From Diploptera punctata (Eukaryota > Arthropoda > Insecta > Blattodea > Blaberidae), in assembly GCA_030220185.1 (NCBI GenBank), contig JASPKZ010007432.1, positions 1,426,001 to 1,490,000 on the forward strand: a stretch of 64,000 nt of DNA, read 5' to 3'. Of this stretch, positions 1,241 through 62,538 are shown piece by piece. The notes under the pieces were generated by a model. That model saw only the letters and a list, made by a program, of their open reading frames with translations, searched no databases and had not been told where the DNA came from. The first letter of the stretch is position 1, and every line of letters begins with the position of its first letter. Made by a program: the position numbers and the translations under genes.

Positions 1241-2360
1241 CTACTTTTAATTGAATTGTCTGGCCGTACACTGCAAATTCTAAATTAGATATAAGAGATG
1301 ATGGTTTATAGAAATGTAAGCCTATAATATTTAGAGAAAGTGAAAAGTTGACGTAAACCAGTTATTCGGAAACGTTGAGCAGATTTCGATACTAGGCTCT
1401 TAGCAATCGATCATCCAAAGGCAATAATGGCATGATGTTCGTCACTTTAAAAGCATTATTAACCCTTAAATTGACAAAACACAAATTTCGTCTGTTAGTT
1501 ATTTGAATGTGGCGGACCGCAGTGAAAACGGAATCTTGTATAACTGTTATTATTAGGTATATTGTAAAATTAGACACACATTTAAGTGGTTTATTTTTGT
1601 TCGTTTTCCTTTGATTTATTAATAATATTAAATTAATTGAACAACTGATGTATTCAAAAGGATACATTACGAATTTAAGGGTTAGAAGTATTTTATTTAG
1701 TTCTAGTTATTTATTAGCATGATGCATTCAATGCGTTATATCTATTTAATTAAATTTTGATATATCATTAAAAAAATTAATGTAATCAAGAGTTCTCAAT
1801 GAGTTTGGTATTCCTACGATCAATTATTCATATTTGGTCATGAGGATAAAAGGATGAGTTCAGGATACAAAAAAAAACTAATACATTGAATTTTATGTTT
1901 TAACGAAACTAGATTTCGAATTTGTCACCACTAGTAAAAATAAGCTTTATTCACGAGTTAAAAAAATAAAAAAAACGAAAAAGCTGAGGCTGCCCGCGGT
2001 CCACTGAACACCAAAGCTGAGTAAATTAAAACTAGCCAACGTGTTTGACAAGTGAACCGACCAATAATTCCGAAGCAGGTGAGCTGGCTGTGATAACGAC
2101 CAACCAATCACTAACTCCCGCTTAATGACGCAGTCAAAACAATGCCACCCATTGTTCCTCAAAAATCAATGTATCAAAATGAACATAACTCTTTTATAAA
2201 TGTATAAACTAGGTGTCACACAAACCAATCAGACTACTCGTATTTCCCGAGTGAAACGTAAATAAATCCACAAGCTCTTCTCTCCATATGATCAAATCTT
2301 GTTAGTACGATCACACCTGTTCTCCAAACGCAACTTGATCAATTTAATTCTTAGTATTTT
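1241..2360. other. unassigned sequence with several CCAAT motifs
   Basis: Mostly AT-rich. A slightly GC-richer stretch at 1980-2160 and its flank hold several ACCAATNA-like motifs (near 2062, 2100 and 2224). They could be promoter CCAAT boxes, but no transcription unit follows, so I make no functional call. Confidence 0.3.
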
Positions 2361-2361
2361 T

Positions 2362-2680
2362 AGATTGGAAATGACCGGCCTCATGGTTTTGTGGTATGAG
2401 CTTCTGAGTACAGTTCTTGAAGGCCCGGGTTTCATTCCCGCTCAGACCACATATTATTCATTAATGGAAATCATTCCTGTGGTCGCCCATAGTTTGGAAT
2501 TTGGGTTAAGTTTAGGTTCAAGGACTCTCCTTGGTACTTCATTATCACTTTCGCTCGTCATATCATCGAGCAACGTAACTCCGCCTTTTAGGCGTTCCAA
2601 CCTAAAAAGTACGTTTCAATTGCCTCAATGCCAGAAATGTAAGACAACGTGGAGTCATGAAAAAAAGGTTTGGTTACAAC
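2362..2680 (+). mobile_element. SINE-4, tRNA-derived
   Basis: The head has an A-box-like GGTTTTGTGGTATGAGCTT and a B-box-like GGGTTTCATTCCC. The body contains the family signature GTTTAGGTTCAAGGACTCTCC and a tail with CCGCCTTTTAGGCG and ATGCCAGAAATGTAAGACAA. The same order appears at 29145-29460 (minus), and pieces occur at 9290, 16040, 27440 and 47541. Translating it gives a 179-codon open frame that I regard as chance. Confidence 0.75.
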
Positions 2681-2704
2681 CTCCTTTGCTACAATTAAAA
2701 AAAA

Positions 2705-2775
2705 CTCTAAGCGCGACAGGCCTAGAGGGCCCTTGGCTGATCAGCCGGCTGCTGGCTTCACATCTTCTATACGAT
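2705..2775 (-). mobile_element. SINE-2 tail fragment
   Basis: The stretch GCGACAGGCCTAGAGGGCCC followed by GCCGGCTGCTGGC matches the 3' part of SINE-2 (6795-7131). The tRNA-derived head is missing. Confidence 0.65.
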
Positions 2776-4094
2776 ATTCCTCAATTTTCTCCCTTTCTTG
2801 TAATATTCCTGGTCAATTTTAAAACTCTCTCTCCATAAGTCTTAGGCCTTTTTAGTTTTGTATTAATATGGGATTTCAGTAACATTTCTAAAACTAATGT
2901 ATCCCATTTACATGTTATACGGAATTACTCTTCCAGGCCGTATATAGTTTACATATAATTTATTTGAATTCTTATTCACAGAAGTTCTAACATCTAACGC
3001 TGCATGGCGTTTAAGATCCTTGAGTGTATCCAGTAGACTTTTTATTTTGTGTCTAAAATGAATTTAATTTTTAGTTTCAATTATACTATTAAAGGGCACT
3101 GATAATGAATTTTGAACCCAGCATTTACCTTGACTAAGGAAAACCAGAAGAAAAAAAAAGTCAAATGCATACGACTGTCAAACGCAACTTCTAATGGCTA
3201 GATACACAGGGAGATCTTTTGGATATTGGTATTATTTTTATTACTATTATTATTAATAGTATTATTAATGGCGTAGCACACTGTTGAATCATAGCCTCTC
3301 CTTTGTTAGGAGCTACTACACAAAGTTAATTTTGACTATTTAACTCATGCCCCAAATGGGAGTCAATGACCAATCACGTTTCAATGATTTCTGTTTTACA
3401 ACCAATCAGAGTCGTGTTTCACGAAATATTTATCAGTGTTAGGATTATCATATATTAAACAAAGCTCCTCCTTTTTAATATTCTGAACAGGTCTGACCGT
3501 TATTTTGCAGTGACTGAGCCTATAACAAATACGGCTACCAGATTGTATATAATAGTGCTTACATGTCAACATTTGTAGCAATTGATTATACCACCAAAAA
3601 AAGAAACCACTGTTTGCACTTTCTTAAATGTATTTTTTCCCAGGTAATAATCGAGAAAAATATAATTGTCATATTTACATCATACGACATCAAAAATGAA
3701 TTAATATACAGATTGATGTGTTTCATTTTTTCTCCACTAGAGAGCATTCTTACAATATTGCGTTCCTTTGGCAATAAATAGTATGATCTGGTTGCAGTGA
3801 TAAACAAAAGAAGCAGTAGAAGCGTACCTATCGTTTCTCATTTGTTTTCAAACATCGCCGTTTACATTAAATATATAAATATTTTAAAATAACTATAGTT
3901 AAATAATGATTTGTGAGTAAACAGCTTAATTTTATTCGTTAAATAGTCCTAACAAATGCCACTCTTGATTTCCAAATTCTCTAGATAAATTCACTCCTCA
4001 CTTCATGAGTCGTGAATTTATCGATAATTTGGAAATCACTCGTGGCATTACTTATGATAATTACCTTATTTGCCAATATATGTAATGAATGGCC
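2776..4094. other. no recognisable gene; short (TTA)n run
   Basis: AT-rich sequence with an imperfect (ATT)n tract near 3230-3270. Overlapping short open frames at 3396-3807 lie on both strands over the same bases and resemble nothing I know. Confidence 0.45.
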
Positions 4095-4747: not shown

Positions 4748-4865
4748 AAAAATCAACAATACGCAATGAAAAACATAAATAGCAATTACAAAATCAACCT
4801 AGGGCAAAACGTGTTCTTCGCTATGTTTAATTTGAGTGTTAAGAGTGAATTGGCTGGAGTGTAGG

Positions 4866-13154: not shown

Positions 13155-13230
13155 TAATGTGAAAAGTTAATATATAATTATGGAATATTCACCTGAAAGG
13201 TCCGTCTCCTCAACTTAATTAATCATTTAA

Positions 13231-13266
13231 CTGTAGCGCTTTCAGGACTTGTCCCATCATCGGCAG
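13231..13266 (-). ncRNA. hammerhead-ribozyme-like fold (PLE)
   Basis: CTG (stem I), CCGATGA core (consensus CUGANGA, so one core change), stem II GGGAC-AA-GTCC, GAAA, a GCGC mini stem III, then UA and CAG closing stem I. Mirror of 13283-13318. Activity is doubtful because of the core change. Confidence 0.6.
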
Positions 13267-13282
13267 GATTCAGTTTTGAATC

Positions 13283-13318
13283 CTGCCGATGATGGGACAA
13301 GTCCCGAAAGAGCTACAG
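13283..13318 (+). ncRNA. hammerhead-ribozyme-like fold (PLE)
   Basis: CTG, CCGATGA, stem II GGGAC-AA-GTCCC (5 bp), GAAA, a weak stem III (GAGCT) and CAG returning to stem I. It has the same U-to-C core change as its mirror copy. Confidence 0.6.
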
Positions 13319-13440
13319 TTAAATGATTAATTAAGTTGAGGAGGCGGACCTTTCAGGTGAATATTCCATAATTATATATTAATTTTGAATAATACCTCAA
13401 CGGAACACATCATGAATATTATAAAGTTAATGTGAAAAGT

Positions 13441-13789: not shown

Positions 13790-13800
13790 TAATATAACAT

Positions 13801-13866
13801 GGCCCAGAAAGCCAAGGGTCCCGGGTTCGAGTCCCGGTCTAGGCGAAAATTTTTCTCCTTCAAATT
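13801..13866 (+). mobile_element. 5'-truncated copy of the tRNA-bearing retroposon
   Basis: Only the 3' half of the tRNA-like unit (from the anticodon arm: GAAAGCCAAGGGTCCC, then the B box GGGTTCGAGTCCC) and the trailer GAAAATTTTTCTCC are present. They sit between an exact 11-bp target duplication TAATATAACAT (13790-13800 and 13867-13877). It fixes the 3' end of the family just after CTC(C)TTCAAAT and shows 5' truncation as in target-primed reverse transcription. Confidence 0.85.
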
Positions 13867-13877
13867 TAATATAACAT

Positions 13878-18027: not shown

Positions 18028-18766
18028 ATAATAAATATGAAAATTAAAACAATATATGCCTGCACATGTATCGTCATGCAAAAATACATTAACTGAGATT
18101 CTTCAACAAGTTTCATGTTATATTTGGTTTCTTTTCTCTTTTGTTTTTTTTTTACGAGTTTATAATTTGTTCAATTAAAGCCATCATTTTTTGCAATGTT
18201 TTAAATATGTTTCCATTCGTTGGGTTTAATTTGAATTGCTTAGAGGTAGTTTTAGCAACCTATTTATTAAACTGTTGAATGTACTAATTTTTGTTGATTA
18301 GGATGTCTTGGAATTATTATGAATAGTAGACACATTGCTTGTAGGCTTTTGGTAAATGTTAATTTCAAGTTTTTTGTTATTGTTAGGTCCAAGTAGTTTA
18401 TTTTATGATTGATTTCTATTTCCTCAGTACATTCTATTTTTCTATGCATGTTAATTAATTCTAGCGAGAATTAGCTTCCTATTCTATTTTTGTTTTCATA
18501 AATGATGACATCATTGACATATCTTGTGATCAATTTGATATAAAAAGTATTTATTAATTACTCAAAATGCTAATTCTTCCAATTCTTGTAGAAATATTTC
18601 AGCTAAAATTCCGGATGTTACAGATCACATTGGGATTCATCATCTTGTACAAATAGTTCATTGTTAAATTGGAAATAATTTTGGGCAGTTATTGTTTTTG
18701 TGACTTTAATTGGTTTATATAGGTGTATCCAGATTACTGTTTGTTATATTTGAAGAGAAAAATTTT

Positions 18767-18840
18767 CGCCTAGACCGGGACTCGAACCCAGGACCCTTGG
18801 CTTTCCGGTCCAAGTGCTCTACCAACTGAGCTACCGAGGC
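18767..18840 (-). tRNA. tRNA-like unit (family 1)
   Basis: 74 bases with acceptor, D, anticodon and T arms, A box TAGCTCAGTTGG and B box GGTTCGAGTCC. The anticodon loop reads CCGGAAA with C in place of the universal U33, and the anticodon stem is one pair long. It is therefore tRNA-derived rather than a working tRNA. T-stem wobble (CTGGG). Confidence 0.7.
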
Positions 18841-19366
18841 GAGTTACGATCTAGATGCAAATTTTTCTCTTATGTACGTTGTAATTCCCTTGCGCCAAAT
18901 GCTTGAAACCATAGCTTCTATCTTTGCAAATGGCGGCTTCTTAGTTAAGAAGACATTTATTGGGAATTTAACACTACTTTATAGCCAGTAGGGCTTCTAT
19001 TGACGATTTTTATTATTAATTTAACACTTCTCATAGAAGGATAAATTATATTTATTGGGAATTTAACACTACTTTATGGCCAGTAGGGCTTCTATTGACG
19101 ATTTTTATTATTAATTTAACACTTCTCATAGAAGGATAAATTATATTCTCTTCAAATATAATTTATCCTTCTATGAGAAGTGTTAAATTAATAATAAAAA
19201 TCGTCAATAGAAGCCCTACTGGCTATAAAGTAGTGTTAAATTCCCAATAAATGTCTTCTTAACTAAGAAGCCGCCATTTGCAAAGATAGAAGCTATGGTT
19301 TCAAGCATTTGGCGCGAGGGAATTACAACGTACATAAGAGAAAAATTTGCATCTAGATCGTAACTC

Positions 19367-19407
19367 GCCTCGGTAGCTCAGTTGGTAGAGCACTTGGCCC
19401 GGAAAGC
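19367..19407 (+). pseudogene. truncated tRNA-like unit
   Basis: Starts GCCTCGGTAGCTCAGTTGG and stops after GGAAAGC, where AAG microhomology joins it to the leader of the next unit. Confidence 0.75.
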
Positions 19408-19438
19408 AAGAGAAAAATTTGCATCTAGATCGTAACTC

Positions 19439-19512
19439 GCCTCGGTAGCTCAGTTGGTAGAGCACTTGGCCCGGAAAGCCAAGGGTCCCGGGTTCGAGTC
19501 CCGGTCTAGGCG
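19439..19512 (+). tRNA. tRNA-like unit (family 1), complete
   Basis: GCCTCGG/TCTAGGC acceptor with one mismatch, GCTC/GAGC D stem, CCGGG/CCCGG T stem, TTCGAGT T loop and loop CCGGAAA. A TTTTT terminator follows 6 bases downstream. C33 argues against decoding function. Confidence 0.75.
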
Positions 19513-19804
19513 AAAATTTTTCTCTTCAAATATAATTTATCCTTCTATGAGAAGTGTTAAATTAATAATAAAAATTGTTTACTGTTTGTTAGTTTATGTT
19601 TCATTATGTTTAAGGTTTAATTGATTGGAATACTGGTATAAAAGTTTTTTCATGCCAAAAGTCAATTTTTGTATTAACTTACTAACTTAGGAGCAACTAT
19701 ATATATGTATGTGTGTGTGTGTGATTGCAGGAAAATAGTAGTGAAATAATGCATGTATAATTATCACCGACTATACTTGTCATACTTCAGGTCAGCATTA
19801 AGAC

Positions 19805-22193: not shown

Positions 22194-23525
22194 ACAAATG
22201 ATTGGAGCGATTTCATGATTTTATTGTAGCGATCTTATTTGACATATCTTCACAGAACTTTAAAGTTATGTATAAAAACTCATAAGGTTTTTTTTGTTTT
22301 CTCTCGCAGCCGTGTTTCAGCTTTAAACCGAGAGAGCGCAGCAGTTATCAAAGATGGCGACAGGCGAGGAGAAAGCATATGCTGTGCTTGAATTTCATTC
22401 AACTCAATCTGTGATAACTGTGCAACGACACTTCAGAACAAAGTTCGAGAAAGATGCACCGAGTGCCAACTCCATTCGGCGATGGTATGCGCAATTTAAA
22501 GCTACAGGATGCCTCTGTAAAAGGAAATCAACGGGTCGTCCTTCAGTGAGTGAAGAAAAGGTTGAGAGTGTGCGGATGAGTTTCACACGTAGCCCACAGA
22601 AATCAACACGAAAAGCGAGCAGAGAGCTGAACATTCCACAACCGACCGTTTGGAAGATCTTGCGGAAAAGATTGAAGCATAAACCTTACCACTTGCAATT
22701 TCTACAAGCCCTTACGCCCATTGACAAAGTGAGTCGGTTTGAATTTTGTACACAAATGCAGCAGTTTATGGATGAGGATGTGTTTTTGTGAGAAACTTGT
22801 CTTCAGTGACGAAGCAACATTCTTTGTGAATGGCAAAGTGAACAAACACAATGTGCGAATCTGGGGCACAGAAAATCCCCGCGTTATTGTGCAGCACATT
22901 CGCGACTCCCCAAAAGTTAGTGTGTTCTGTGCGGTTTCTCAGTTCAAAGTTTATGGCCCTTTTTTCTTCTGCGAGCAGAACGTTACAGGACACGTGTACC
23001 TGGACATGCTGGAAAATTGGCTCATGCCGCAGCTGACGACCGACAGTGAGACCTTCATCTACCAGCAGGATGGTGCTCCACCACACTTCCATCACGATGT
23101 TCGTGAATTTTTAAACATGAGATTGCCAAACCGATGGATCGGTCGCAGTGGAGAGAATGATCAGAAATTGTTGTCATGGCCTCCACGCTCCCCCGATTTG
23201 ACGCCGTGCGATTTTTTTGTTTGGGGGTATGTGAAAGATTCAGTGTTTGTGCCTCCTTTACCAGTAGACTTACCAGAACTGCGAGCTCGCATAATCAATG
23301 CCTTTGAACAAATTAATAGGGACATGTTACGTCGAGTATGGGACGAACTTGATTACAGACTTGATATCTGCAGAATCACCAAGGGGGAGCATATGGAGCA
23401 CCTGTAACATCTCAAAAAAAACCTGGGAAGTTGCTCTATGTATCTGTAAAAGTTCGTGAAAATATGTCGAATACTACAGCTACCATAAAATCATGAAATC
23501 GCTCCAATCATTTGTAATCACCCTG
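22194..23525 (+). mobile_element. Tc1/mariner-superfamily transposon, nearly intact
   Basis: TA target duplication (22192-22193, 23526-23527). Terminal inverted repeats of 47 bp begin CACGGTGATTACAAATGATT (left) and CAGGGTGATTACAAATGATT (right, other strand) with two mismatches. A single transposase frame, broken once, lies inside. High end identity suggests recent insertion. Confidence 0.92.
22354..23407 (+). pseudogene. Tc1/mariner-type transposase, one frameshift
   Basis: About 350 residues in two overlapping frames (22354-22791 and 22739-23407), so one indel near 22785 is enough to explain the break. The N-terminal part has a helix-turn-helix ending RELNIPQPTVWKILRKRL and a GRPSV linker. 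The DDE/D core shows LVFSDEATFF (first Asp), YQQDGAPPHFH (second Asp) and WPPRSPDLTPCDFFVWGYVK (third Asp). There are 46 residues between the second and third Asp if the PCD aspartate is used (41 if the SPD one), longer than the DD34D of classical mariner. It belongs to the insect group with WPPRSPDLTP.DFFLWG.</thinking>. Confidence 0.88.
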
Positions 23526-28433: not shown

Positions 28434-28445
28434 TTCTTTCCTATA

Positions 28446-28688
28446 ATGATCTTGAAGATTTTTGGGCTGTAGGCTGTTGTTGTGAGGCTTGTAGTTCCCC
28501 GACGTTTCACCAGAGACTGCGTCTGGCATCCTCAAGAGTTGTCTCAAGACAACAACCCTTGAGGATGCCAGATGCAGTCTCTGCCAAAACGTTGGGGAAC
28601 TACAGGCCTCAAGACCACGGCCTACAGCCTGAAAATCTTCTTCAAGATCATCATAGCAACTCCGGCCATGAAAGTCTACGTCAATACA
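28446..28688 (+). mobile_element. PLE terminus, palindromic copy
   Basis: Arms of about 105 bp are inverted about a centre near 28545 (GATCTTGAAGATTTTTGGGC against its complement ending CTTCTTCAAGATC). A unique tail CCGGCCATGAAAGTCTACG follows on the right. An exact 12-bp target duplication TTCTTTCCTATA lies at 28434-28445 and 28689-28700. It has no coding sequence and belongs to a different PLE family from 13168-13427. Confidence 0.85.
28497..28537 (-). ncRNA. hammerhead-ribozyme-like fold, degenerate
   Basis: CTC, TTGAGGA (core, first base changed), stem II CCAGA/TCTGG, TGAAAC, GTC, GGG. The mirror copy is at 28556-28597 with GAAA changed to AAAA. Both cores are altered, so cleavage is doubtful. 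Confidence 0.5.
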
Positions 28689-30637: not shown

Positions 30638-33600
30638 CCTCCATGGTATCTTCACCTTGTCGTGGTGGAGTGGCTCGCATGCTTAAATGATCCTGAGAGC
30701 TTAAATGATCCATTCGGTTCTCCGGGCGGGTACTACTTCAGGGAACCCATCCCAAAGGCTCAAACACAGGAACATGTTCTTAGGAACATGGAATGTTAGG
30801 ACTTAATACAATAGCGGGGCACTAGAGATATTAACGCGGGAATTAGATAAATCACCTTTGGATATAGTCGCTTTACAGGAAGTTAGGTGGCCAGGAGAAG
30901 GTAGTCAGGAATCAGGAAGCTTTGCATTATACTACGGGGGTGCAGAAAGACCTGCATTTGGAACGGGTTTATTAGTCAGAAGGAGGATCCTATCCGCTAT
31001 CCGAGATATTAAGTTTGTGAGTGATAGGATATCATACATAATTCTAAAGGGTAAACAACATGATTTTATAATTGTAAATGTACATGCCCCTACAGAAGAT
31101 AAAATGACAAGATTAAGGATGAGTTCTATGAAGAATTAGAATGCTTATTTGATAGCCTTTCACGATATCATATGAAAATTGTCTTAGGAGATTTTAATGC
31201 AAAAGTGGGGCAGGAAGATATATTCAAACCAACAATAGGCAAATTCAGTCTTCATGAAGATAGTATCAACAATGGGGTTAGATTAGTCACCTTCACCACA
31301 TCAAAGAATCTCATTGTTAAGAGCACAACATTTCAGCATAATGATATTCACAAATACACCTGGACATCTCCAGATGGCGAAACTCGGAACCAGATAGATC
31401 ATGTATTAGTGGACAGACGCTGGCACAGTAGCATCATCAATGTTAGATCAGTTAGAGGGACAGACTGCAATTTGGATCATCATCTGCTCAGGGTGAAAAT
31501 CAGACAACGGCTATCACTTATGAGAGGAACAAACGCTAAAGATGATTCTGTAAAATTTGAATTAAAAAACTTGAAAAATGATGAAATGCAGCAAGAATAC
31601 CAAATCAAAATTGCTAATAGATTTGAAGTACTGGAATCTTCAGATGACAATGTGGCAAACGAAGAAGAAACTGATATAAATAAAGAATGGGAGGCTATAA
31701 GAGATACTATTAAATTGTCAGCATCAGAAAGCGTTGGTTGTTTAAAAAAAGAGGCAAAACAAGAAATGGTTTGATGAGGAGTGTGCCGACATTGTAAAGA
31801 AAAGAAAGTTAGCAAAAATGAAATGGTTACACGAGCCAAATGAGGTAAATTTAGAGCAATTGGATAGTATTAGACGGGAAACCACCAAGTTACTAAAGAG
31901 TAAAAAGAGGTAATATTTGGGAGAGAAGATTAATGATCTTGAAATGAATGCAAAAAATAGGAACATTAGAGAATTATATCAGGGAATTAGTATAGAGAAG
32001 AAAGGGTTTCAGGCTAGAACAAACATAATTCGGAATGAAAATCGGGATATGATTGCAGATTCCAGGAGGATATTAAATAGATGGAAAAGTTACTTTAATC
32101 AGCTATTAAATGTACATACAGAACAGGACATTGAGGAAGATAACTTACAGACAGCAGAAATGCTAGTCGCAGAACCAAGTGCATTAGAGGTTGAAATGGC
32201 GATTGAAAAATTGAAGATGTATAAATCATCAGGTTCAGATGAGATCCCAGCAGAACTGATAAAATCAGGGGGAGAAAAATTGATGGACAAGATACACTGG
32301 TTGCTTAGTATGATTTGGGAAAAAGAAGCTCTTCCAGATGAATGGAAAGAATCAATTATCGTACCAATTTATAAGAAAGGAGATAAAACTGATTGCAACA
32401 ACTACAGGGGCATCTCATTACTTTCAACTACCTACAAAATTCTAACAAATATATTAGTAAGCAGACTTACTCCCTATATTGATGACATTCTAGGAGATCA
32501 TCAATGTGGATTTAGAAGAAACAGGTCTACAACAGATCAGATTTTTAGTATATGACAGATTTTAGAAAAGAAATGGGAATATAATGGTACTGTACATCAA
32601 CTATACATAGACTTCAAAAAAGCATATGATTCAATTAATAGGGAGAAGTTATATAGTATCCTGCTAGAGTTCGGAATTCCTAAAAAGTTAGTTAGATTTA
32701 TACGAATGTGTCTAAATGGCACAAAGTGTAGGGTGCATGTAGGCAAACAGTTTTCGGACAGTTTTGAAATTCAAAATGGGTTGAAGCAAGGAGATGCACT
32801 ATCTCCTCTACTATTTAATTTTGTACTAGAGCATGCCATTAAATCTTTAGAGAATGAGGAAGGCTTAAAACTCAATGGTATTAATAAGCTGTTAGTTTAT
32901 GCTGATGATGTAGTACTATTGGCCGATAGCGAGGAGATACTAAAGGACAACACACACACACTATTGAGTAACACTAAGAAATTAGGACTGGAAGTAAATA
33001 TCAATAAAACTAAATATATGGTCACACGCAGAAATACATTATATAATGGAAATGAACAGCTAATGACAAATGAGGGAAATTTTGAGGAAGTGGCTGAATT
33101 CAAATACCTAGGAACAATAATCACAAATAGGAATGAGATGCACAAAGAATTCTGGAAATGCATGCTATTATGTTTTGAAAGACTCTTGTTGTCCAACTCC
33201 TTTCAAAAAATGTTAAACTGAAAATATATAAAACTATTATTCTACCCGTTATATTATATGGGTGCAAAACATGGACCCTTACTTTAAGGGAGGAAATGAG
33301 ATTACAAGTATTTGAGAATAAAGTACTTAGGAAAATTTTTGGACCAAAGAGAGATGAACAGACATGTGAATGGAGAAGACTGCATAACAATGAACTACAT
33401 GGTCTTTATAGGAAGTCAGATATAATAAGAACAGTTAAGTCTCGTAGACTGCGATGGGCAGGACATGTTGCACGTATGGGGAATGAAAGACGTGCATGGA
33501 AGCTTCTTGTAGGAAAACCAGAGGGAAAACGCCCAGTTGGTAGACCAAGAATGAGGTGGGAGAATAACATTAACTATGATTTGAGAGAAGTAGATTATAC

Positions 33601-33705
33601 AGGGAATGATTGGAAAGCATTAGCTCAGGATATGGATGTATGGAGAGCTTACTTCCGCGCGGCCATGATCCTATGGGTTCGATAGTGCCAGTGAGTAAGT
33701 AAGTA
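30638..33705 (+). mobile_element. RTE-type LINE, best copy in the window
   Basis: An exact 14-bp target duplication AGATAACTCTAGTT (30624-30637, 33706-33719). The 5' untranslated part is shortened compared with the copy at 60882-61690. One reading frame follows (endonuclease, reverse transcriptase, C-terminal region), and the 3' end is GTGCCAGTGAGTAAGTAAGT, i.e. a short GTAA repeat instead of poly(A), as usual for RTE-clade LINEs. Confidence 0.93.
30790..33685 (+). pseudogene. RTE endonuclease-reverse transcriptase, broken frame
   Basis: The product would nick target DNA and copy its RNA there. The endonuclease (30790-31500) shows LQEVRWPGEG (catalytic Glu), VLGDFNAKVG, RNQIDHVLVDRRW and LDHHLL, the AP-endonuclease set. 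The reverse transcriptase (about 32160-33130) shows IPIYKKGDK-like IVPIYKKGDK, NYRGISLL, CGFRRNRSTTDQ, FKKAYDSI, GLKQGDALSP and the intact catalytic YADD. The C-terminal part has RRLRWAGHVARM, GRPRMRWE and DWKALAQD. Breaks: frameshifts near 31135, 31765 and 33200 and a TGA at 32553. It cannot act autonomously as sequenced. Confidence 0.92.
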
Positions 33706-38380: not shown

Positions 38381-38483
38381 AATATTTAATTTTTTGAGGT
38401 TATTTTAATTATATTATTTTTGGTCTGGACATCTTACCTCAATATTAATATTGAGGTAAGATGTCCAGACCAAAAATAATATA
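38381..38483. mobile_element. PLE terminus, minimal palindrome of 103 bp
   Basis: An exact 13-bp target duplication ATATTGTGTATAT (38368-38380, 38484-38496). The inside is a near-perfect palindrome: TTTTTGGTCTGGACATCTTA, then ACCTCAATATTAATATTGAGGT at its centre. The sequence is the extreme end of the PLE family at 43569-45143. R-A copy 1 is uninterrupted at the corresponding position (near 35092). Confidence 0.85.
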
Positions 38484-38595
38484 ATATTGTGTATATGTTT
38501 TATCGGTTTTTTATATTATTTTTTTTATTATGGCAGTTAGGCCCAGCCACAACAATTTTATATAGGGGAAACATAAATTCATGTAAATATTTATT

Positions 38596-38950
38596 ATATT
38601 ATTTTTAGTCTGATCATCTTACCTCAATATTAATGTTGATTTGTTCTTGGATATGTTTCAAAACAATTCTGTTTTATCGTCAGCTTGTCCAGACTGGTTT
38701 GATTTATGTTGCACACCCTGGATGTCGATGTCAGCTCCATCCTGTGGTTGGCCAAAGAACTTCCAATCAAGGTCACACTCTGTCAGTATTTCAAAATTCA
38801 TAACTCTGTTTTTGTTCTTCTGAATATACATTTTTTCCCAAATAGCCAGCTCTTTTTATATTTTCTAACTGTTTTAATAATTAATAAGATGATCAGACTA
38901 AAAATAATATAATTAAATAACCTCAAAATATCACTTCCTAAAATTAAATA
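38596..38950 (+). mobile_element. PLE, palindrome-ended deletion copy
   Basis: An exact 13-bp target duplication GTAAATATTTATT (38583-38595, 38951-38963). The end of the GIY-YIG frame lies on the minus strand at 38700-38860 (MNFEILTE-like). A degenerate ribozyme fold lies at 38646-38690 (CTGACGA, AAAACA/TGTTTT, GAAAC, ATATC). The right arm retains only about 28 bp of the inverted end before the tail ACCTCAAAATATCACTTCC. Most of the second arm is deleted. Confidence 0.82.
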
Positions 38951-42062: not shown

Positions 42063-42144
42063 CTTCACAGGGAAAAAAATGCTATGAGGTTTAATTTAAG
42101 AATTAAATTAATGTTTTATTACCTCACCTCATATCCTTTTTCTT

Positions 42145-42183
42145 CTAGACTGCAGTTTCAGAGCTTATCTCTATCATCAGTAG
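42145..42183 (-). ncRNA. hammerhead ribozyme, consensus core
   Basis: Minus strand: CTA, CTGATGA, stem II AGAG-ATAAG-CTCT, GAAA, stem III CTGCAG (self-complementary ACTGCAGT), cleavage GTC, TAG. All invariant core bases are present, with a 3-bp stem I next to the core. The plus-strand mirror at 42322-42360 has G of GAAA changed to A. Confidence 0.78.
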
Positions 42184-42321
42184 CCTCTTGTCGACCAGTG
42201 TTATGTCATTTCTTGGTTGTTTTTCTTCTTCCTTCTATCGGTGGACTGATGAACCTCTGGATCACCAATAGAAGGAAGGAGAAAACTGCCAAGAAACGAC
42301 ATAACACCAGTCGATGAGAGG

Positions 42322-42360
42322 CTACTGATGATGGAGATAAGCTCCAAAACTGCAGTCTAG
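42322..42360 (+). ncRNA. hammerhead-ribozyme-like fold, one core change
   Basis: CTA, CTGATGA, stem II GGAG-ATAAG-CTCC, then AAAA where GAAA is required, CTGCAGTC, TAG. The stem II change is compensatory (GGAG/CTCC against AGAG/CTCT in the mirror copy). Confidence 0.65.
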
Positions 42361-42526
42361 AAGAAAAAGGATATGAGGTGAGGTAATAAAAACATTAATT
42401 TAATTCTTAGATAACATTTAAATTATTCAGTTACTGTTGCAATATATTATTTTTCCCACTGCAAGTATAATTTCATAAAATTCTGGATAAGGGACATACC
42501 AATTATTCAACTTTATGTGAACATAA

Positions 42527-43425: not shown

Positions 43426-43620
43426 ACACCATACTGATATATTAATTTTTAATGATAATTCTTTAACAAATAATCAATGTCAGCTTATGGGTATAGCATT
43501 AAATAGATTATAATGAAATAAAAAAATCGCTTTATAAAGTTAATTGTAATTTATGCACATAGATTTAATTATATTATTTTTGGTCTGGACATCTTACCTC
43601 AATATTAATGTTGATTTGTT

Positions 43621-43666
43621 CTTGGACATGTTTCAAAACAATTCTCTGTTTTATCTTCAGCTTTCC
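43621..43666 (-). ncRNA. hammerhead-like fold (PLE), stem I weak
   Basis: CTGAAGA, stem II AAAACA/TGTTTT, GAAAC, self-complementary ACATGT, GTC. Core and stems II and III fit; I cannot extend stem I beyond one pair. An identical mirror fold is at 45005-45050. Confidence 0.6.
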
Positions 43667-43680
43667 CAGACTGGTTTTAT

Positions 43681-44283
43681 TTATGTTGCATTATGTTGCA
43701 CCACCTGGATGTCGATGTCAGCTCCATCCTGTGGTTGGCCAAAGAACCTCCAAACAAGGTCACCCTCCATCGGAATATCAAAATTCATAACTCTGTTTCT
43801 GTTCTTCTGAATATAAATTTTTTCCCAAATAGTCAGCTCGTTTGTATTTTCTAACTGTTTTAATAATTTAGTGTCTGAATTTATATTATGTTTTTCAGAC
43901 CAAACATGAGCAGCAACTGCAGATTTTTCAATTTCTCCATTTTTAATATTTCTTATGTGTTCTTTGGTTCTAATTTTTAGGTTTCTTTTTGTTTTCCCTA
44001 TATATATCTTTTCACAACCCATGCATTCAATTTGATATATTCCTGACTTTTTATTTTTATCAGTTTTTTCATTTTTGTTGGTTTTTATTAGTTTATTTAA
44101 ACTGTAGTTATTTTTTGGTGCTAATTTAATATTAAACTTCTCAAATATATTTTGAAATTTATTATGTACCCAGGGGTGATATGTGAATTTCCTATATTTT
44201 TTCATAGGTGGTTCTTCTTTTTCAAGATTACTTCTGTTTATCATTTTTTGTTTTTTATACTTTTCTATCCTTTTTTGTACCAT
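43681..44283 (-). CDS. PLE GIY-YIG endonuclease domain, left palindrome arm
   Basis: 200 residues, identical in sequence to the right-arm copy. Domain order: basic linker KRIEKYKKQK, FTYHPWVHNKFQNIFEKFNI, nuclease core SGIYQIECMGCEKIYIGKTK with KEHIRN, WEKIYIQKNRN with the conserved Glu, then MNFDIPMEGDLVWRFFGQPQ. The ATG is internal to the full PLE frame (compare 63059), so the reverse transcriptase is missing. Both arms being open with no differences points to recent origin. Confidence 0.88.
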   Translation of the reverse strand: MVQKRIEKYKKQKMINRSNLEKEEPPMKKYRKFTYHPWVHNKFQNIFEKFNIKLAPKNNYSLNKLIKTNKNEKTDKNKKSGIYQIECMGCEKIYIGKTKRNLKIRTKEHIRNIKNGEIEKSAVAAHVWSEKHNINSDTKLLKQLENTNELTIWEKIYIQKNRNRVMNFDIPMEGDLVWRFFGQPQDGADIDIQVVQHNAT

Positions 44284-44387
44284 TTTTTCATCAAACCCAT
44301 TTTCTCTTGCTACTTTGATTATGTGTTTTTTCTCATGAGAAAAAACACATAATCAAAGTAGCAAGAGAAAATGGGTTTGATGAAAAA

Positions 44388-44990
44388 ATGGTACAAAAAA
44401 GGATAGAAAAGTATAAAAAACAAAAAATGATAAACAGAAGTAATCTTGAAAAAGAAGAACCACCTATGAAAAAATATAGGAAATTCACATATCACCCCTG
44501 GGTACATAATAAATTTCAAAATATATTTGAGAAGTTTAATATTAAATTAGCACCAAAAAATAACTACAGTTTAAATAAACTAATAAAAACCAACAAAAAT
44601 GAAAAAACTGATAAAAATAAAAAGTCAGGAATATATCAAATTGAATGCATGGGTTGTGAAAAGATATATATAGGGAAAACAAAAAGAAACCTAAAAATTA
44701 GAACCAAAGAACACATAAGAAATATTAAAAATGGAGAAATTGAAAAATCTGCAGTTGCTGCTCATGTTTGGTCTGAAAAACATAATATAAATTCAGACAC
44801 TAAATTATTAAAACAGTTAGAAAATACAAACGAGCTGACTATTTGGGAAAAAATTTATATTCAGAAGAACAGAAACAGAGTTATGAATTTTGATATTCCG
44901 ATGGAGGGTGACCTTGTTTGGAGGTTCTTTGGCCAACCACAGGATGGAGCTGACATCGACATCCAGGTGGTGCAACATAATGCAACATAA
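44388..44990 (+). CDS. PLE GIY-YIG endonuclease domain, right palindrome arm
   Basis: Mirror of 43681-44283 with the same 200 residues. The frame continues open upstream (KKHIIKVARENGFDEK) to the palindrome centre. It ends TAA, followed by the ribozyme-like fold at 45005-45050 and the 3' tail. This arm has the sense orientation of the inserted element. Confidence 0.88.
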   Translation: MVQKRIEKYKKQKMINRSNLEKEEPPMKKYRKFTYHPWVHNKFQNIFEKFNIKLAPKNNYSLNKLIKTNKNEKTDKNKKSGIYQIECMGCEKIYIGKTKRNLKIRTKEHIRNIKNGEIEKSAVAAHVWSEKHNINSDTKLLKQLENTNELTIWEKIYIQKNRNRVMNFDIPMEGDLVWRFFGQPQDGADIDIQVVQHNAT

Positions 44991-45004
44991 ATAAAACCAG
45001 TCTG

Positions 45005-45050
45005 GGAAAGCTGAAGATAAAACAGAGAATTGTTTTGAAACATGTCCAAG
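45005..45050 (+). ncRNA. hammerhead-like fold (PLE), mirror copy
   Basis: Identical to the fold at 43621-43666 on the opposite strand; 15 bases after the stop codon of the right-arm frame. Confidence 0.6.
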
Positions 45051-45284
45051 AACAAATCAACATTAATATTGAGGTAAGATGTCCAGACCAAAAATAATAT
45101 AATTAAAATAACCTCAAAATATAACTTCCTAAAATTAAATATTACATAGATTTAAGTTTGAATTTTTTGATATTGAGATGATTATGTCACAAAATTTTGA
45201 ATAACAATTATTTAACTACACAATAGGAGAGTATTACAGAATATCTATAAATACTATTTTTATCAGAGTTATCACCATAATCAT

Positions 45285-47190: not shown

Positions 47191-47368
47191 GTGGATGGAG
47201 TTAAATGGCCGGCAATACTGCAATGGGGGGGGGGGGAGAACCATGGGTAATTAAACCCAGCCATTCAGTGCCAGTATTCCAATAACACATTTAAATGGAA
47301 ATATCTTGAGTAATAGTGAGTGGAGAACATATTTTAATCGACTCACCTCATACATTTTCAAACTTCTT

Positions 47369-47411
47369 TGATACCGACGGTTTCAGACAAAATCATGTCC
47401 TTCTTCAGTCA
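47369..47411 (-). ncRNA. hammerhead ribozyme-like fold, good core
   Basis: TGA, CTGAAGA, stem II GACA/TGTC, GAAA, stem III ACC-GTC-GGT, cleavage after TA, then TCA closing stem I with TGA. The mirror copy at 47419-47462 has a changed core (ATGAAGA). Confidence 0.68.
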
Positions 47412-47540
47412 TGGCTTCCACATGAAGAAGGACATGATTTTGTCTGAAACCATCGGTATGAAAGAAGTTTGAAAATGTATGAGGTGAGTGATTAAAATAT
47501 GTTCTCCACTCACTATTAATGATATAACCTCATAATGTTT

Positions 47541-50529: not shown

Positions 50530-50858
50530 TAAATAGTTAATGTAAACACAAAGATCATAATAACAGTTTAAAGCAGTGCATGTAGCTAGCGTACACATCA
50601 CGTCGTTCCGCATTTGGTGAAGAATTCAACCTGCGTACATGTCATGTCGCTCCACGCTGACGGGTTAATACACTTATTATCACTCTTGAACTGCATACTT
50701 TTTTTCTTGCATGGTGGGTATTTTGCATCAACCGGCTATGTCGTATTATGTAAGTTTCAAGGAAATATGTTTAAAGTTTAAGTCAATCTTCACTGTTTTT
50801 ATTATTCATTTCATATATCTGAATAATGGATGAATTATATTTGAAGAGAAAAATTATA

Positions 50859-50931
50859 CGCTCAGACCGGGGCTTGAACCCAGGACCTTTTGCTCTCTAG
50901 GCAAATGCTCTACTGAACAAGCTATCAGAGC
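50859..50931 (-). tRNA. tRNA-like unit (family 2)
   Basis: Acceptor GCTCTGA/TCTGAGC with one mismatch, B box GGGTTCAAGCCCC, anticodon loop CTAGAGA. The D arm is damaged (GCTT). Confidence 0.6.
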
Positions 50932-51151
50932 AAGCTCCAATCTAAGTGCAAATTTTTCTCTTATATACGCTGTTAATTCCCATGCACCAAATGCCATGAA
51001 ACCTTTGCCTCCATCTTTATTAAGAAGACATTTAATTGGGAATTTTACATTACATTATAAAGGCAGTGAGTGCAGCTTCTTTTGATGTTTTTATTATTAA
51101 TTTCATTACATCTCAATGATGCATAAATTATATTCAAAGAGAAAAATTATA

Positions 51152-51224
51152 TGCTCAGACCATAGCTTGAACCCAGGACCTTTCACACTCTAGGCAAATT
51201 CTCTACTAATTGAGCTACCTGAGC
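51152..51224 (-). tRNA. tRNA-like unit (family 2), worn
   Basis: GCTCAGGTAGCTCAATTAGT start, loop CTAGAGT, B box GGGTTCAAGC. The T stem is broken by TATGG, so it is not functional. Confidence 0.6.
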
Positions 51225-51440
51225 AAGTTCCAATCTAAACACAAATTTTTCTCTTATATACGCTGTTAATTCCCGTGCACCAAATGCTATGAAATCTTTG
51301 CTTCTATCTTGCAAATGGTGACTTCTTTATTAAGAAGACATTTAATTGGGAAACAAAGGTTTTATAGCATTTGGCGCATGGGAATTAACAGCATATATAA
51401 GACATATATAAGAGAAAAATTTGTATTTAGATTGGAGCTT

Positions 51441-51512
51441 GCTCAGATAGCTCACTCACTAGAGCATTTGCCTAGAGTGCGAAAGGTCCTGGGTTTAAGC
51501 CCCAGTCTGAGC
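51441..51512 (+). tRNA. tRNA-like unit (family 2), best copy
   Basis: Perfect acceptor (GCTCAGA/TCTGAGC), D stem GCTC/GAGC, T stem CTGGG/CCCAG, and anticodon loop CTAGAGT with U33 and triplet AGA. The D loop ACTCACTA lacks the invariant GG, so normal tRNA folding is unlikely. Confidence 0.65.
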
Positions 51513-51545
51513 ATATAATTTTTCTCTTCGAATACAATCTTCACT

Positions 51546-53457: not shown

Positions 53458-53540
53458 AAATACAATACAAACATGATGTTTTTATTATTGATTTAACATT
53501 TCACACTGAAAGATAAATTATATTTGAAGAGAAAAATGTT

Positions 53541-53614
53541 CGCCTAGACCGAGACTTGAACCAGGGACCTTTGGTTTGCCGGGCCAAATGCTCTACCAAC
53601 TGAGCTACCAAGGC
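53541..53614 (-). tRNA. tRNA-like unit (family 1)
   Basis: GCCTTGGTAGCTCAGTTGG start, B box mutated (GGTTCAAGTCTC), same CCGG-type anticodon loop region. Confidence 0.65.
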
Positions 53615-53845
53615 GAGTTACGATCTAGACGCAAATTTTTCTCTTATATACATTGTAATTCCCTCTCGCCAAATACTTTTGAAACCATTGCTTCTATCTT
53701 TGCAAATGGCGGCTTCTTAGTTAAGAAGACATTTATTGAGAATTTAACATTACTTTATAAAGCTACTAAGGCTTCTAATGATGTCTTTATTATTGATTTA
53801 ACATTTCTCACTGAAAGATAAATTATATTTGAAGAGAAAAATTTT

Positions 53846-53919
53846 TGCCTAGACCGAGACTCGAACCCAGGACCTTTGGCTTGCCGGGCCAAATGCTCTA
53901 CCAACTGAGCTACTGAGGT
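53846..53919 (-). tRNA. tRNA-like unit (family 1)
   Basis: ACCTCAGTAGCTCAGTTGG start, B box GGGTTCGAGTCTC. Acceptor stem pairing is worn. Confidence 0.65.
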
Positions 53920-54192
53920 GAGTTGCGATCTAGATGCAAATTTTTCTCTTATATACATTGTAATTCCCTCTCGCCAAATGCTTTTGAAACCATTGCTTCT
54001 ATCTTTGCAAATGGCAGCTTCTTAGTTAAGAAGACATTTATTGGGAATTTAACATTACTTTATAAAGCTAGTAAGGCTTCTAATGATGTTTTTATTATTG
54101 ATTGCAAAGATAGAAGCAATGGTTTCAAAAGCATTTGGCAAGAGGGAATTACAACGTATATAAGAGAAAAATTTGCATCTAGGTCGCAACTC

Positions 54193-54266
54193 GCCTCGGT
54201 AGCTCAGTTGGTAGAGCATTTGGCCTGGCAAGCCAAAGGTCCCGGGTTCGAGTCTTGGTCTAGGTG
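54193..54266 (+). tRNA. tRNA-like unit (family 1)
   Basis: GCCTCGGTAGCTCAGTTGG start, loop CCTGGCA region, B box GGGTTCGAGTCTT. TTTTT terminator in the trailer. Confidence 0.68.
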
Positions 54267-54342
54267 AAAATTTTTCTCTTCAAATACAATACAAACATGT
54301 TAAAATCAAATGTTTCCTACCTCTCCTCATACAAATCTTCTA

Positions 54343-54388: not shown

Positions 54389-54622
54389 ATTTTGGCGACT
54401 GATGTTATGTTGATCGGAAGAAACTCTTCTTCTTCCCTCTGTTGGTGGACCGATGAACCTCTGGATCAGGTCAGAATTTGTAGGAAAATCTGAGTTCATA
54501 AGTTTTCCTTTGTTTTTCTGAATGTGGATTTTTTCCCAAACTGAGTTCCTTTTAATGATGTTTTTATTATTAATTTAACATTTCTCAATGAAAGATAAAT
54601 TAAATTTGAAGAGAAAAATTCT

Positions 54623-54696
54623 CGCCTAGACCGGGACTCGAACCCGGGACCCTTGGCTTTCCGGGCCAAGTGCTCTACCAACTGAGCTACCGAGGC
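54623..54696 (-). tRNA. tRNA-like unit (family 1)
   Basis: Matches the complete unit at 19439: all four arms, loop CCGGAAA with C33. Confidence 0.72.
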
Positions 54697-54926
54697 GAGT
54701 TACGATCTAGACGCAAATTTTTCTCTTATATACGTTGTAATTCCCTATCGCCAAATGCTTTTGAAACCATTGTTTCTATCTTTGCAAATGGCGGCTTCTT
54801 AGTTAAGAAGACATTTATTGGAAATTTAACATTACTTTAAAAGCCAGGAAGGCCTCTAATGATGTTTTTATTATTAATTTAACATTTCTCAATGAAAGAT
54901 AAATTAAATTTGAAGAGAAAAATTCT

Positions 54927-55000
54927 CGCCTAGACCGGGACTCGAACCCGGGACCCTTGGCTTTCCGGGCCAAGTGCTCTACCAACTGAGCTACCGAGGC
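54927..55000 (-). tRNA. tRNA-like unit (family 1)
   Basis: Identical by eye to 54623-54696, exactly 304 bases further on. Confidence 0.72.
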
Positions 55001-55140
55001 GAGTTACGATCTAGACGCAAATTTTTCTCTTATATACGTTGTAATTCCCTATCGCCAAATGCTTTTGAAACCATTGTTTCTATCTTTGCAAATGGCGGCT
55101 TCTTAGTTAAGAAGACATTTATTGGAAATTTAACATTACT

Positions 55141-55166
55141 CCCGGGTTCGAGTCCCGGTCTAGGCG
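55141..55166 (+). pseudogene. truncated tRNA-like unit at the palindrome centre
   Basis: Begins at CCCGGGTTCGAGTCCCGG, so only the T arm and acceptor 3' strand are present; it marks the inversion point. Confidence 0.75.
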
Positions 55167-55396
55167 AGAATTTTTCTCTTCAAATTTAATTTATCTTTCA
55201 TTGAGAAATGTTAAATTAATAATAAAAACATCATTAGAGGCCTTACTGGCTTTTAAAGTAATGTTAAATTTCCAATAAATGTCTTCTTAACTAAGAAGCC
55301 GCCATTTGCAAAGATAGAAACAATGGTTTCAAAAGCATTTGGCGATAGGGAATTACAACGTATATAAGAGAAAAATTTGCGTCTAGATCGTAACTC

Positions 55397-55470
55397 GCCT
55401 CGGTAGCTCAGTTGGTAGAGCACTTGGCCCGGAAAGCCAAGGGTCCCGGGTTCGAGTCCCGGTCTAGGCG
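55397..55470 (+). tRNA. tRNA-like unit (family 1)
   Basis: Complete, same sequence as 19439-19512. TATATAAG lies about 36 bases upstream and TTTTT 6-8 bases downstream. Confidence 0.72.
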
Positions 55471-55700
55471 AGAATTTTTCTCTTCAAATTTAATTTATCT
55501 TTCATTGAGAAATGTTAAATTAATAATAAAAACATCATTAGAGGCCTTACTGGCTTTTAAAGTAATGTTAAATTTCCAATAAATGTCTTCTTAACTAAGA
55601 AGCCGCCATTTGCAAAGATAGAAACAATGGTTTCAAAAGCATTTGGCGATAGGGAATTACAACGTATATAAGAGAAAAATTTGCGTCTAGATCGTAACTC

Positions 55701-55774
55701 GCCTCGGTAGCTCAGTTGGTAGAGCACTTGGCCCGGAAAGCCAAGGGTCCCGGGTTCGAGTCCCGGTCTAGGCG
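55701..55774 (+). tRNA. tRNA-like unit (family 1), 3'-terminal
   Basis: Complete. The element ends 20 bases later at CTCTTCAAATT, the family 3' end. Confidence 0.72.
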
Positions 55775-56255
55775 AGAATTTTTCTCTTCAAATTTGAGTT
55801 ACTTTTGTTTATCCAATTGTTTAATTAGACTGGCTTTTGATTCAATTAAATGTTTTTTTGGACCAAGCATGAGCAGCTACTGCTGACTTTTCCACTTCTC
55901 CATTTTTGACATTTCTAAGATGTTCTTTCATCCTTGTTTTCAAATTTCTTTTTGTTTTTCCAATATAAATTTTGTCACAATCCCTGCATTTGATCTGATA
56001 AATTCCTGATTTGTTTTTTCTTCAATTCTGACCTGATCCAGAGGTTCATCGGTCCACCAACAGAGGGAAGAAGAAGAGTTTCTTCCAATCGACATAACAT
56101 CAGTCGCCAAAATAGTACTGAACATGAGACCATTATAGTCTCAAAATCGCGATCTACTTAGAAGATTTGCTTGAGGAGAGGTAGGAAACATTTTATTTTA
56201 ACATAAATTAAACCTCATAGTGATTAATTCCTGTAAAAGTTAAACAACACAAACA

Positions 56256-60798: not shown

Positions 60799-60881
60799 AA
60801 GCCATCTTTACTATCCCAGACAATTAAAAAAAGTAATTTTTCCTAATGAAGTTATCACCATATAAAAATTTTAACTAAATA

Positions 60882-61690
60882 CCTACTCACTGGCACAATC
60901 GAACCCATAGGTTCATGGCCACACAGACATAAGCTCTCCATACACCCCTATCCTGAGCTAATGCTTTCCTATCATTCCCTGTATAACCTACTTCCCTCAA
61001 ATCATAGTTAATCTTATTCTCCCACCTCATTCTTGGTCTACCAACTGGGCATTTTCCCTCTGGTTTTCCTACAAGAAGCTTCCATGCAACTCTTTCATTC
61101 CCCATATGTGCCACATGTCCTGCCCATCACAGTCTACAAGACTTAACTGTTCTTATTATATCTGGCTTCCTATAAAGACCATGTAATTCATTGTTATGTG
61201 GTCTTCTCCATTCACCCATAGTATAATGCAAAGCTTCCTGATTCCTGACTACCTTCTCCTGGCCACCTAACTTCCTGCAAAACGATTATACCCAAGGGTG
61301 ATTTTTCTAATTCCCGCGTTAATATCTTTAGTGCTCCGCTATTGCATAAAGTCCTAACATTCCATGTTCCTAGGATCATGTCCCTGTGTTTGAGCCTTTG
61401 GCATGGGTTCCCTGAATTAGTCCCCGCCCAGAGATCCAAATGGGGGACTATTTGACCTCTGGAAAATTTTACCCCAGTGGAACCCATGTCCGCATTTCTT
61501 GATGGTTGTACTTTTACGGTGAAAGATTGTCACTCTTTCGACCAAGGTACTTTTTTTGTCTGGCTTATCACCTTCAACCAGTCCGGCATGGGTAACCCTA
61601 TCGGCAGCAAAGCTACCGCCAGCATAGCTCTCGGGATCATTTAAGCACGCAAGCCACTCCACCACAACAAGGTAAAGATACCATGGAGGG
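60882..61690 (-). mobile_element. RTE LINE, internally deleted copy
   Basis: Full 5' region (CCATGGTATCTTTACCTTG at the right, minus sense) and endonuclease start (LGTWNVRTLCNSGALKIL, LQEVRWPGEGSQESGSFALY) are joined near 61216 directly to the 3' part (EWRR.HNNELHGLYRK onward) and the terminal GTGCCAGTGAG. About 2.4 kb is missing. Flanks AAAAATTTTAACTAAATA and AAAAATTTTTAAATAAATA form the likely target duplication, so the deleted form itself was copied into place. Confidence 0.85.
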
Positions 61691-61709
61691 AAAAATTTTT
61701 AAATAAATA

Positions 61710-62286: not shown

Positions 62287-62538
62287 ATTTTAATGGAGAA
62301 GTGGAAAAGTCAGCAGTAGCTGCTCATGCTTGGTCCAAAAAACATCTAATTGAATCAAAAGTTAGTCTAATTAAGCAAATAGATAAACATAAGGAACTCA
62401 CGGTTTGGGAAAAAATCCACATTCAGAAAAACAAAGAAAAACTTATGAACTTCGAAATTCCCGCAAATTCTGATCGGTCCACCAATAGAGGGAAGAAGAA
62501 GTAATTCTTCCGATCGATATAACATCAGTCAGAAAAAT

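Follow-up and report, generated by a model that had tools for sequence, protein, structure and literature searches.

Five insertions with tRNA-like sequences in the window

The window, the 64-kb stretch of DNA analysed here as a whole (C6898:1426001-1490000), carries five insertions of a tRNA-bearing repeat unit (Table 1). Its host is most probably the cockroach Diploptera punctata, to which the protein relatives of named origin belong, one of them 100% identical over 22% of the query. Four of them, loci A–D, had been recognised in a preliminary description as inverted tRNA-like units enclosed by target duplications, and this shared plan was borne out at each locus, with end positions shifted by 0–2 bp. 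Locus E, a truncated monomer with a duplication of its own, adds to these four. ARAGORN made 10 tRNA calls in the window and Rfam made 11, every one of them within A–D. The interior of locus A contains tandem duplications of 95 bp and 72 bp. At locus C, the identity between the flanks extends to 18 bp if an AAAT microhomology is counted. Locus D sits inside a copy of a Penelope-like element (PLE), and a paralogous empty site lies at 62391–62400, where the flanks of D are joined in a related PLE copy.

Other repeats are present in the window. Inverted repeats lacking tRNA units, with 81–95% identity between arms, lie at 13163–13386, 28438–28659, 42094–42412 and 47311–47518. By eye, we also noted mariner-like open frames at 22327–23404 (+) and 49354–50447 (-), and a broken non-LTR retrotransposon with endonuclease-like and RT-like frames at 30807–33682 (+), with related pieces at 60873–61698.

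Table 1 Insertions and their parts in the window (site 1 and tail are the two kinds of 3′ end)
Feature	Position	Strand	Details
Locus A, palindromic insertion	18747..19578	both arms	left end site 1 (CTTCAAAT), right end tail
Locus A target duplication, 13 bp	18734-18746 (left), 19579-19591 (right)	+	TTACTGTTTGTTA
Locus A tRNA-like unit, left arm	18766..18841	-	ARAGORN/Rfam
Locus A tRNA-like unit, right arm	19438..19513	+	ARAGORN/Rfam
Locus B, older palindromic insertion	50795..51534	both arms	left end tail, right end site 1
Locus B target duplication, 11 bp	50784-50794, 51535-51545		
Locus B tRNA-like unit	50858..50932	-	
Locus B tRNA-like unit	51441-51513	+	by Rfam
Locus C, palindromic insertion	53476..54285	both arms	left end tail, right end site 1
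Locus C target duplication, 14 bp net	53462-53475, 54286-54299		ACAATACAAACATG
Locus C tRNA-like unit	53540..53615	-	ARAGORN/Rfam
Locus C tRNA-like unit	53847-53918	-	ARAGORN/Rfam
Locus C tRNA-like unit	54192-54267	+	ARAGORN/Rfam
Locus D, palindrome of near-identical units	54554..55794	both arms	left end tail, right end site 1
Locus D target duplication, 12 bp	54542-54553, 55795-55806		one mismatch
Locus D reference 304-bp unit, sense	55490..55793	+	identical to 55186-55489; first letters TTAATTTATC, last CTTCAAAT
Locus D tRNA-like unit	55700..55775	+	in reference unit
Locus D tRNA-like unit	55396-55471	+	
Locus D tRNA-like unit	54926-55001	-	
Locus D tRNA-like unit	54622-54697	-	
Locus D tail	54554..54603	-	~50 nt beyond site 1, hairpin-forming
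Locus E, 66-bp 5′-truncated monomer	13801..13866	+	5′ limit within tRNA, 3′ end CTTCAAAT
Locus E target duplication, 11 bp	13790-13800, 13867-13877		TAATATAACAT
PLE1 palindrome of two 3′ halves	43567..45142		site 1 left, tail right; 12-bp duplication ACATAGATTTAA; GIY-YIG domain coded in both arms
Short PLE1 palindrome	38387..38485		tail left, site 1 right; 13-bp duplication
PLE1 palindrome	38587..38940		site 1 left, tail right; 13-bp duplication

Structure and abundance of the unit

We mapped the unit with BLAST in the window and in 10 other loci of the assembly (L-numbers denote loci outside the window). From 5′ to 3′, the reference unit consists of the tail hairpin, a body, TATATAAG, the tRNA-like sequence, TTTTT and CTTCAAAT, and the next unit adjoins directly; the tRNA-like part lies close to the 3′ terminus of the unit, as first described. 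Non-coding units of ~304 bp stand head-to-tail in D and in L026–L029, and no open reading frame of the unit reaches 150 aa. Most of the mapped insertions are inverted arrays. At palindromic loci the antisense units are on the left and the sense units on the right, so that the 3′ ends face outward. These 3′ ends are mainly of two kinds: site 1, which is CTTCAAAT(A/T), and the tail, which continues for ~43–55 nt more, through AATAATAAAAACATC. The palindrome end placed about 65 bp beyond a tRNA-like unit in the preliminary description corresponds to CTTCAAAT plus this tail. The inner (5′) ends of the arms vary, and arm length ranges from ~15 bp to several kb. By eye, inner ends seem to be frequent at unit positions ~237–272; this is the tRNA's 3′ half, and RT might have stalled there on a folded or modified tRNA.

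Individual insertions hold from <1 to ~18 units. The longest array, with ~18 units in ~6.2 kb, lies on contig C8103 (L041 7809 to L028 5014) and is flanked by a 12-bp duplication; it is interrupted by 552 bp unlike the unit (L028 3322–3873), which had no match in the local set searched. Strongly shortened copies include E, with 66 bp, the ~80-bp palindrome L066, from which the tRNA is gone, and L073, with ~120 bp. Single-arm copies are few (E; L039 7499–8078). A different tRNA-like sequence followed by AAATTTTTCTCTT was seen by eye at L035 ~4785–4865 and is perhaps a distant relative of the unit family.

The density in the window is five insertions (A–E) per 64 kb. In a sample of twelve 3-kb stretches, five contained copies, representing ~6 insertions, some of them short or diverged; the stretches were placed by hand at round-number positions on 8 contigs already known to carry copies, which may bias the count upward. 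Scaled to the 3,123,318,691 bp of the assembly searched, this sample suggests ~5 x 10^5 copies genome-wide (Poisson range ~2 x 10^5 to 1.1 x 10^6). DNA searches of the assembly returned at least 11 candidates with the unit, common words being skipped, and at least 38 with the tail, of which 20 were examined. Copies are ~70% to 99% alike (99.5% between L026 and D), indicating a family that is both old and young.

Target duplications flank many of the insertions

We assembled a set of 25 insertions, hand-picked from the unit map, with boundaries and end types taken from the BLAST maps rather than fixed beforehand; copies that were cut by a stretch end, fragmentary, single-arm or complex stayed outside it. 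Duplications were scored as length minus 3 per mismatch, and the control paired each left flank with the right flanks of other insertions. A score of at least 11 was reached by 16 of the 25 insertions, compared with 3 of 600 mismatched pairs, and a score of at least 9 by 18 of 25, compared with 11 of 600; locus D scores 9. Scores below 9 were obtained for L032, L041b, L052a, L052b, L044, L039a and L039b. None of nine fragmentary, single-arm or complex copies (L037 6779–7282 among them) reached 9. In a further set, two of three distinct palindromes had a 12-bp duplication (L063, L066) and the third had one of 9 bp; L064, a second copy of the L063 locus (638/638 aligned bases identical), was counted with it once, and L061, which scored 4 and is possibly cut by the stretch end, was left out of the three. 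The 18 clear duplications are 11–16 bp long, nine of them 12 bp, and have an A+T content of 77%, compared with 66% in the window plus 36 kb. A preference for insertion at PLE ends, which we had gained as an impression by eye, was dropped (2/25 compared with 0.73 expected, P = 0.17).

These data bear on the idea that the palindromes are artefacts of assembly or missed adapters, or that the loci are ordinary clustered tRNA genes. The units of the long arrays L027 and L028 do differ by indel-type changes, and L063 and L064 resemble one locus assembled twice. However, the copies have distinct flanks with duplications, the same plan recurs at many loci and down to the minimal palindrome of L066, and the arms have diverged at old loci (identity between arms is 84% at B, 92% at C and 98% at A). 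Both the target duplications and the locus-to-locus differences in arm age argue against tRNA gene arrays and read artefacts, and we regard this explanation as extremely improbable. The preliminary description had named tRNA gene arrays lacking duplications, and palindromes vanishing in long reads, as outcomes that would overturn its reading; duplications were found, and the differing arm ages speak for real palindromes as far as the assembled sequence goes.

Most palindromes combine two different 3′ ends

One end at site 1 and the other with a tail is the arrangement in all 17 palindromes whose duplication scores at least 11 (15 in the 25-insertion set, plus L063 and L066). Under random choice of the site on each side, the probability of this outcome would be at most 0.5^17. 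Among all two-armed copies that we classified, whatever their duplication, 23 of 27 are mixed-ended: 20 of the 23 palindromes in the set of 25, and each of the three further distinct loci. The exceptions are L044, with site 1 at both ends, L052a, with a short tail, L039a, which stops at unit position 82, and L037 6779–7282, with a tail on the left and a right end at about unit position 237. No clear duplication accompanies any of these four.

Long inverted repeats bounded by target duplications would also be expected of a MITE or a fold-back DNA transposon, whose termini are inverted. The asymmetric ends contradict this, the duplication length varies, the arms span ~15 bp to several kb and a truncated monomer exists, so such an origin is scarcely credible.

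The combination of target duplications, fixed 3′ ends and variable 5′ truncation instead agrees with the original designation of the loci as a retroposon. It would in part also fit an ordinary tRNA-derived SINE moved by one-sided, target-primed reverse transcription of a LINE, with palindromes produced by twin priming or later nested insertions: there is a tRNA-like part with A/B-box-like sequences, the 3′ end is fixed, 5′ ends are truncated, duplications are 11–16 bp long, and an A-rich stretch of 20 bp precedes the duplication in L026. However, twin priming yields adjacent, not duplicated, segments, and here both arms repeat the same sequence, 3′ ends outward, within one pair of duplications. 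Moreover, 3′ ends fall at two sites, both of which are used in the same insertion, and single duplications enclose whole palindromes, the ~6.2-kb array included. We therefore consider mobilisation by a LINE very unlikely.

Penelope-like elements share the insertion plan

One PLE family of the window, PLE1, is a tandem unit of 2690 bp (spacing 2688–2690 bp) with RVT_1 and GIY-YIG matches. The 684-aa frame of one copy scored 48.4 bits for RVT_1 (cut-off 29.6) and 21.3 bits for GIY-YIG, slightly below the cut-off of 22.6; two of three shorter PLE frames of the window passed the GIY-YIG cut-off and the third had no match. A first look genome-wide gave 222,554 PLE1 candidates, and the 150 that we scored match the window frame at 97–100% identity; many of them have long open frames and tandem copies. 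PLE1 is extremely abundant and partly young. All seven PLE1 insertions that we analysed were read as mixed-ended, and five of the seven have a duplication scoring at least 11 (12–16 bp), compared with none of 42 mismatched pairs. With some boundaries still wrong, the two families taken together and 4 subtracted per mismatch, 15 of 32 insertions had reached 11 or more, compared with 4 of 992 mismatched pairs.

A stem resembling TATGAGGT/ACCTCATA is common to several PLE families; behind it runs a tail that stops at about TTCCTAAAA, and together they are perhaps an RT start signal. The stem occurs at 29747, 40787, 53056 and 60327 of the window and in L027, L030, L034, L036–L038, L040, L041, L045 and L047. 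It was not seen by eye in the tRNA-bearing unit, and a profile of 24 local PLE tails, which covers a small part of the 3.1-Gb genome, found no match among 38 units. A hammerhead core is present in PLE1 and in one PLE2 copy and absent from a second PLE2 stretch; it was found in none of 38 copies of the tRNA-bearing unit. The Rfam hammerhead models gave no match in the stretches searched, PLE1 included.

The insertion plan of the tRNA-bearing units (tandem units, inverted arms, one tail end and short duplications) matches the published PLE signature, as set out below, which argues for a PLE-type mode of insertion. We conclude that A–E probably belong to a SINE-like retroposon that is non-autonomous and is moved by machinery of the Penelope type. 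The preliminary description did not recognise the family and contrasted it with usual SINEs: the plan is indeed not that of a standard SINE, and it fits the PLE plan, which a PLE family displays in the same window. The palindromic layout, noted there as foreign to usual SINEs, is likewise best explained by the type of machinery, since the plan is that of PLEs.

A closer relationship is also conceivable, in which the unit is the pseudo-LTR (pLTR) of an autonomous PLE that carries a tRNA-like sequence and A–D are solo-pLTR derivatives. The tandem, inverted and tailed plan equals that of PLE1, and pLTRs can be trans-mobilised without an ORF, as described in the cited part of PMC3846280. In L035, a unit (2343–3061) lies ~180 bp beyond an old PLE frame (1311–2161, +) and is oriented like it, with another unit at 15–198, and in L036 a PLE tail at 9438 passes directly into a unit body. 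Read by eye, however, both L035 and L036 appear to hold separate old insertions, all decayed; among the mapped units, drawn from a minute fraction of the genome, we saw none that flanks an intact PLE frame; and the intact PLE examined, PLE1, has other ends. We judge this relationship unlikely. A PLE fragment also lies inside a tRNA unit of L035, with an apparent duplication GAAAATTTTTCT at 187–198 and 385–396, seen by eye.

Folding of the tRNA-like part and the tail

Our alignments comprised 31 of 59 distinct tRNA-like regions and, for the tail, 24 of 52 distinct windows together with one taken from D. We excluded noisy units from the long arrays, near-duplicates and three tRNA copies that had internal deletions, and left the D-arm unscored because it aligned poorly. 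Pairing reaches 91.1% in the acceptor, anticodon and T stems, where 10 of 17 pairs show two-sided changes and 46 cells are two-sided, compared with 15.1 +/- 5.2 in shuffled alignments, which ignore relatedness, and at most 6 in slid versions, which preserve it. Since the tRNA stems covary across subfamilies, we conclude that the fold is kept at the RNA level. For the tail hairpin, pairing is 86.4% and 15 cells are two-sided, compared with 6.4 shuffled and at most 3 slid; its covariation is weaker, with 3 two-sided pairs, a number reached by 226 of 500 shuffles.

ARAGORN names Ser or Ala from the anticodon (GGA, AGA, GGC). Because the anticodon differs among subfamilies, decoding is unlikely to be a conserved property of the tRNA-like part. 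By eye, and against the general consensus, this part contains A/B-box-like sequences, and most likely it would serve as an internal Pol III-type promoter and as a folded RNA recognised by the machinery or by host proteins. A point against the proposed reading is that a T5 run follows each tRNA-like sequence before site 1 and should stop Pol III there, short of a template that would reach site 1 and the tail. Multi-unit copies retain the tRNA-like part, indicating that it is not excised by tRNA processing before copying. The whole unit folds at -99 kcal/mol (z -6.9). In the predicted structure of lowest energy, the 3′ part of the tRNA and the sequence preceding the tRNA pair with each other to form one long hairpin. 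The tRNA-like fold and the long hairpin are therefore possible competing folds.

A proposed mechanism of mobilisation

In the mechanism that we propose, RNA of one or more units would be bound by a PLE-type RT/nuclease, which would cleave an AT-rich target on both strands, leaving a 3′ stagger of ~12 nt. Each target 3′ end would then act as primer for reverse transcription at an internal position of the RNA: one would start ahead of the hairpin, at site 1, and the other past it, at site 2. Joining of the two 5′-truncated cDNAs in the middle of the insertion would give the palindrome, and fill-in the target duplication. Multi-unit templates could arise by template jumps, by Pol II read-through or from a circular template.

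Lacking a long frame, the unit could at most be a non-autonomous PLE member. We did not class it as an autonomous PLE because it has no ORF, as a retrozyme because it has no hammerhead, or as a standard SINE because its 3′ plan differs. No autonomous partner with the 3′ ends of the unit was found, searches with the unit and the tail returning just more units; a pattern scan of viral contigs, a set that may omit records from this genome, gave 0 matches.

A more specific scenario, which we offer tentatively, is that the tRNA-like module replaced the hammerhead of a retrozyme-like element, that a Penelope-type RT raised the product to 10^5 to 10^6 copies, and that the two strands start with an obligate asymmetry around the hairpin. 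If true, this asymmetry would show unequal roles of the two enzyme subunits.

Comparison with known systems

The open-access literature examined (titles and abstract openings, most subscription papers being beyond reach) contained no tRNA-bearing element of PLE type, and we infer within these bounds that the variant is new, as the preliminary description had supposed of the family. The tRNA-bearing units resemble tRNA-derived SINEs such as those of Blattella germanica (PMC9191728) in being non-coding and interspersed with a tRNA-like region. The SINEs described there differ in that they terminate in short tandem repeats or poly(A), and the cited part of that paper mentions no palindromic plan. 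In the general SINE plan the tRNA is 5′ and the 3′ tail is A-rich or shared with a LINE, whereas here the tRNA lies just before site 1 and the ends are site 1 and the tail.

Like metazoan (non-LTR) retrozymes, the units are small, non-coding and tandem (PMC7761336, PMC7229834). According to the parts of these sources cited here, retrozymes have units of 150–300 bp and circular RNAs of 170–400 nt, have been called SINE-like (PMC7761336), and have PLEs/Terminons named as their likely helpers (PMC7761336, PMC7229834). Retrozymes are, however, defined by a self-cleaving hammerhead and make circular RNA; our units keep a tRNA-like fold in place of a hammerhead core. A tRNA-based type would join the SINE-like elements proposed to use Penelope machinery, of which hammerhead retrozymes are an example. 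Short non-autonomous Penelope elements of Heliconius are likewise of non-autonomous PLE type; the cited part of the report on them (PMC6685494) describes neither their structure nor a tRNA part. Mobile tRNA-like units can also inflate tRNA gene counts in such genomes.

With PLEs the units share tandem arrangement, inverted copies, one tail end, 5′ truncation, two putative RT start sites bounding the tail and short duplications. Unlike PLEs, they have neither reading frame nor hammerhead core, carry a tRNA-like module instead and have no detectable sequence in common with local PLE tails. To our knowledge, PLE integration is largely unsolved. A small, abundant element whose insertions document the two start sites, the two strands and the cut in the target offers a natural record that lends itself to counting on a large scale. 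According to the cited part of PMC3846280, one of the inverted pLTRs carries a tail in the PLE plan, pLTRs serve in trans-mobilisation and duplications are 8–10 bp long; the cited part of PMC11167929 describes a PLE protein that cuts and extends both strands, with RT starting at two internal sites that bound the tail. In the in vitro experiments reported there, the start site did not differ between the strands, whereas the tRNA-bearing units follow a rule of one end of each kind, which can now be tested in vitro.
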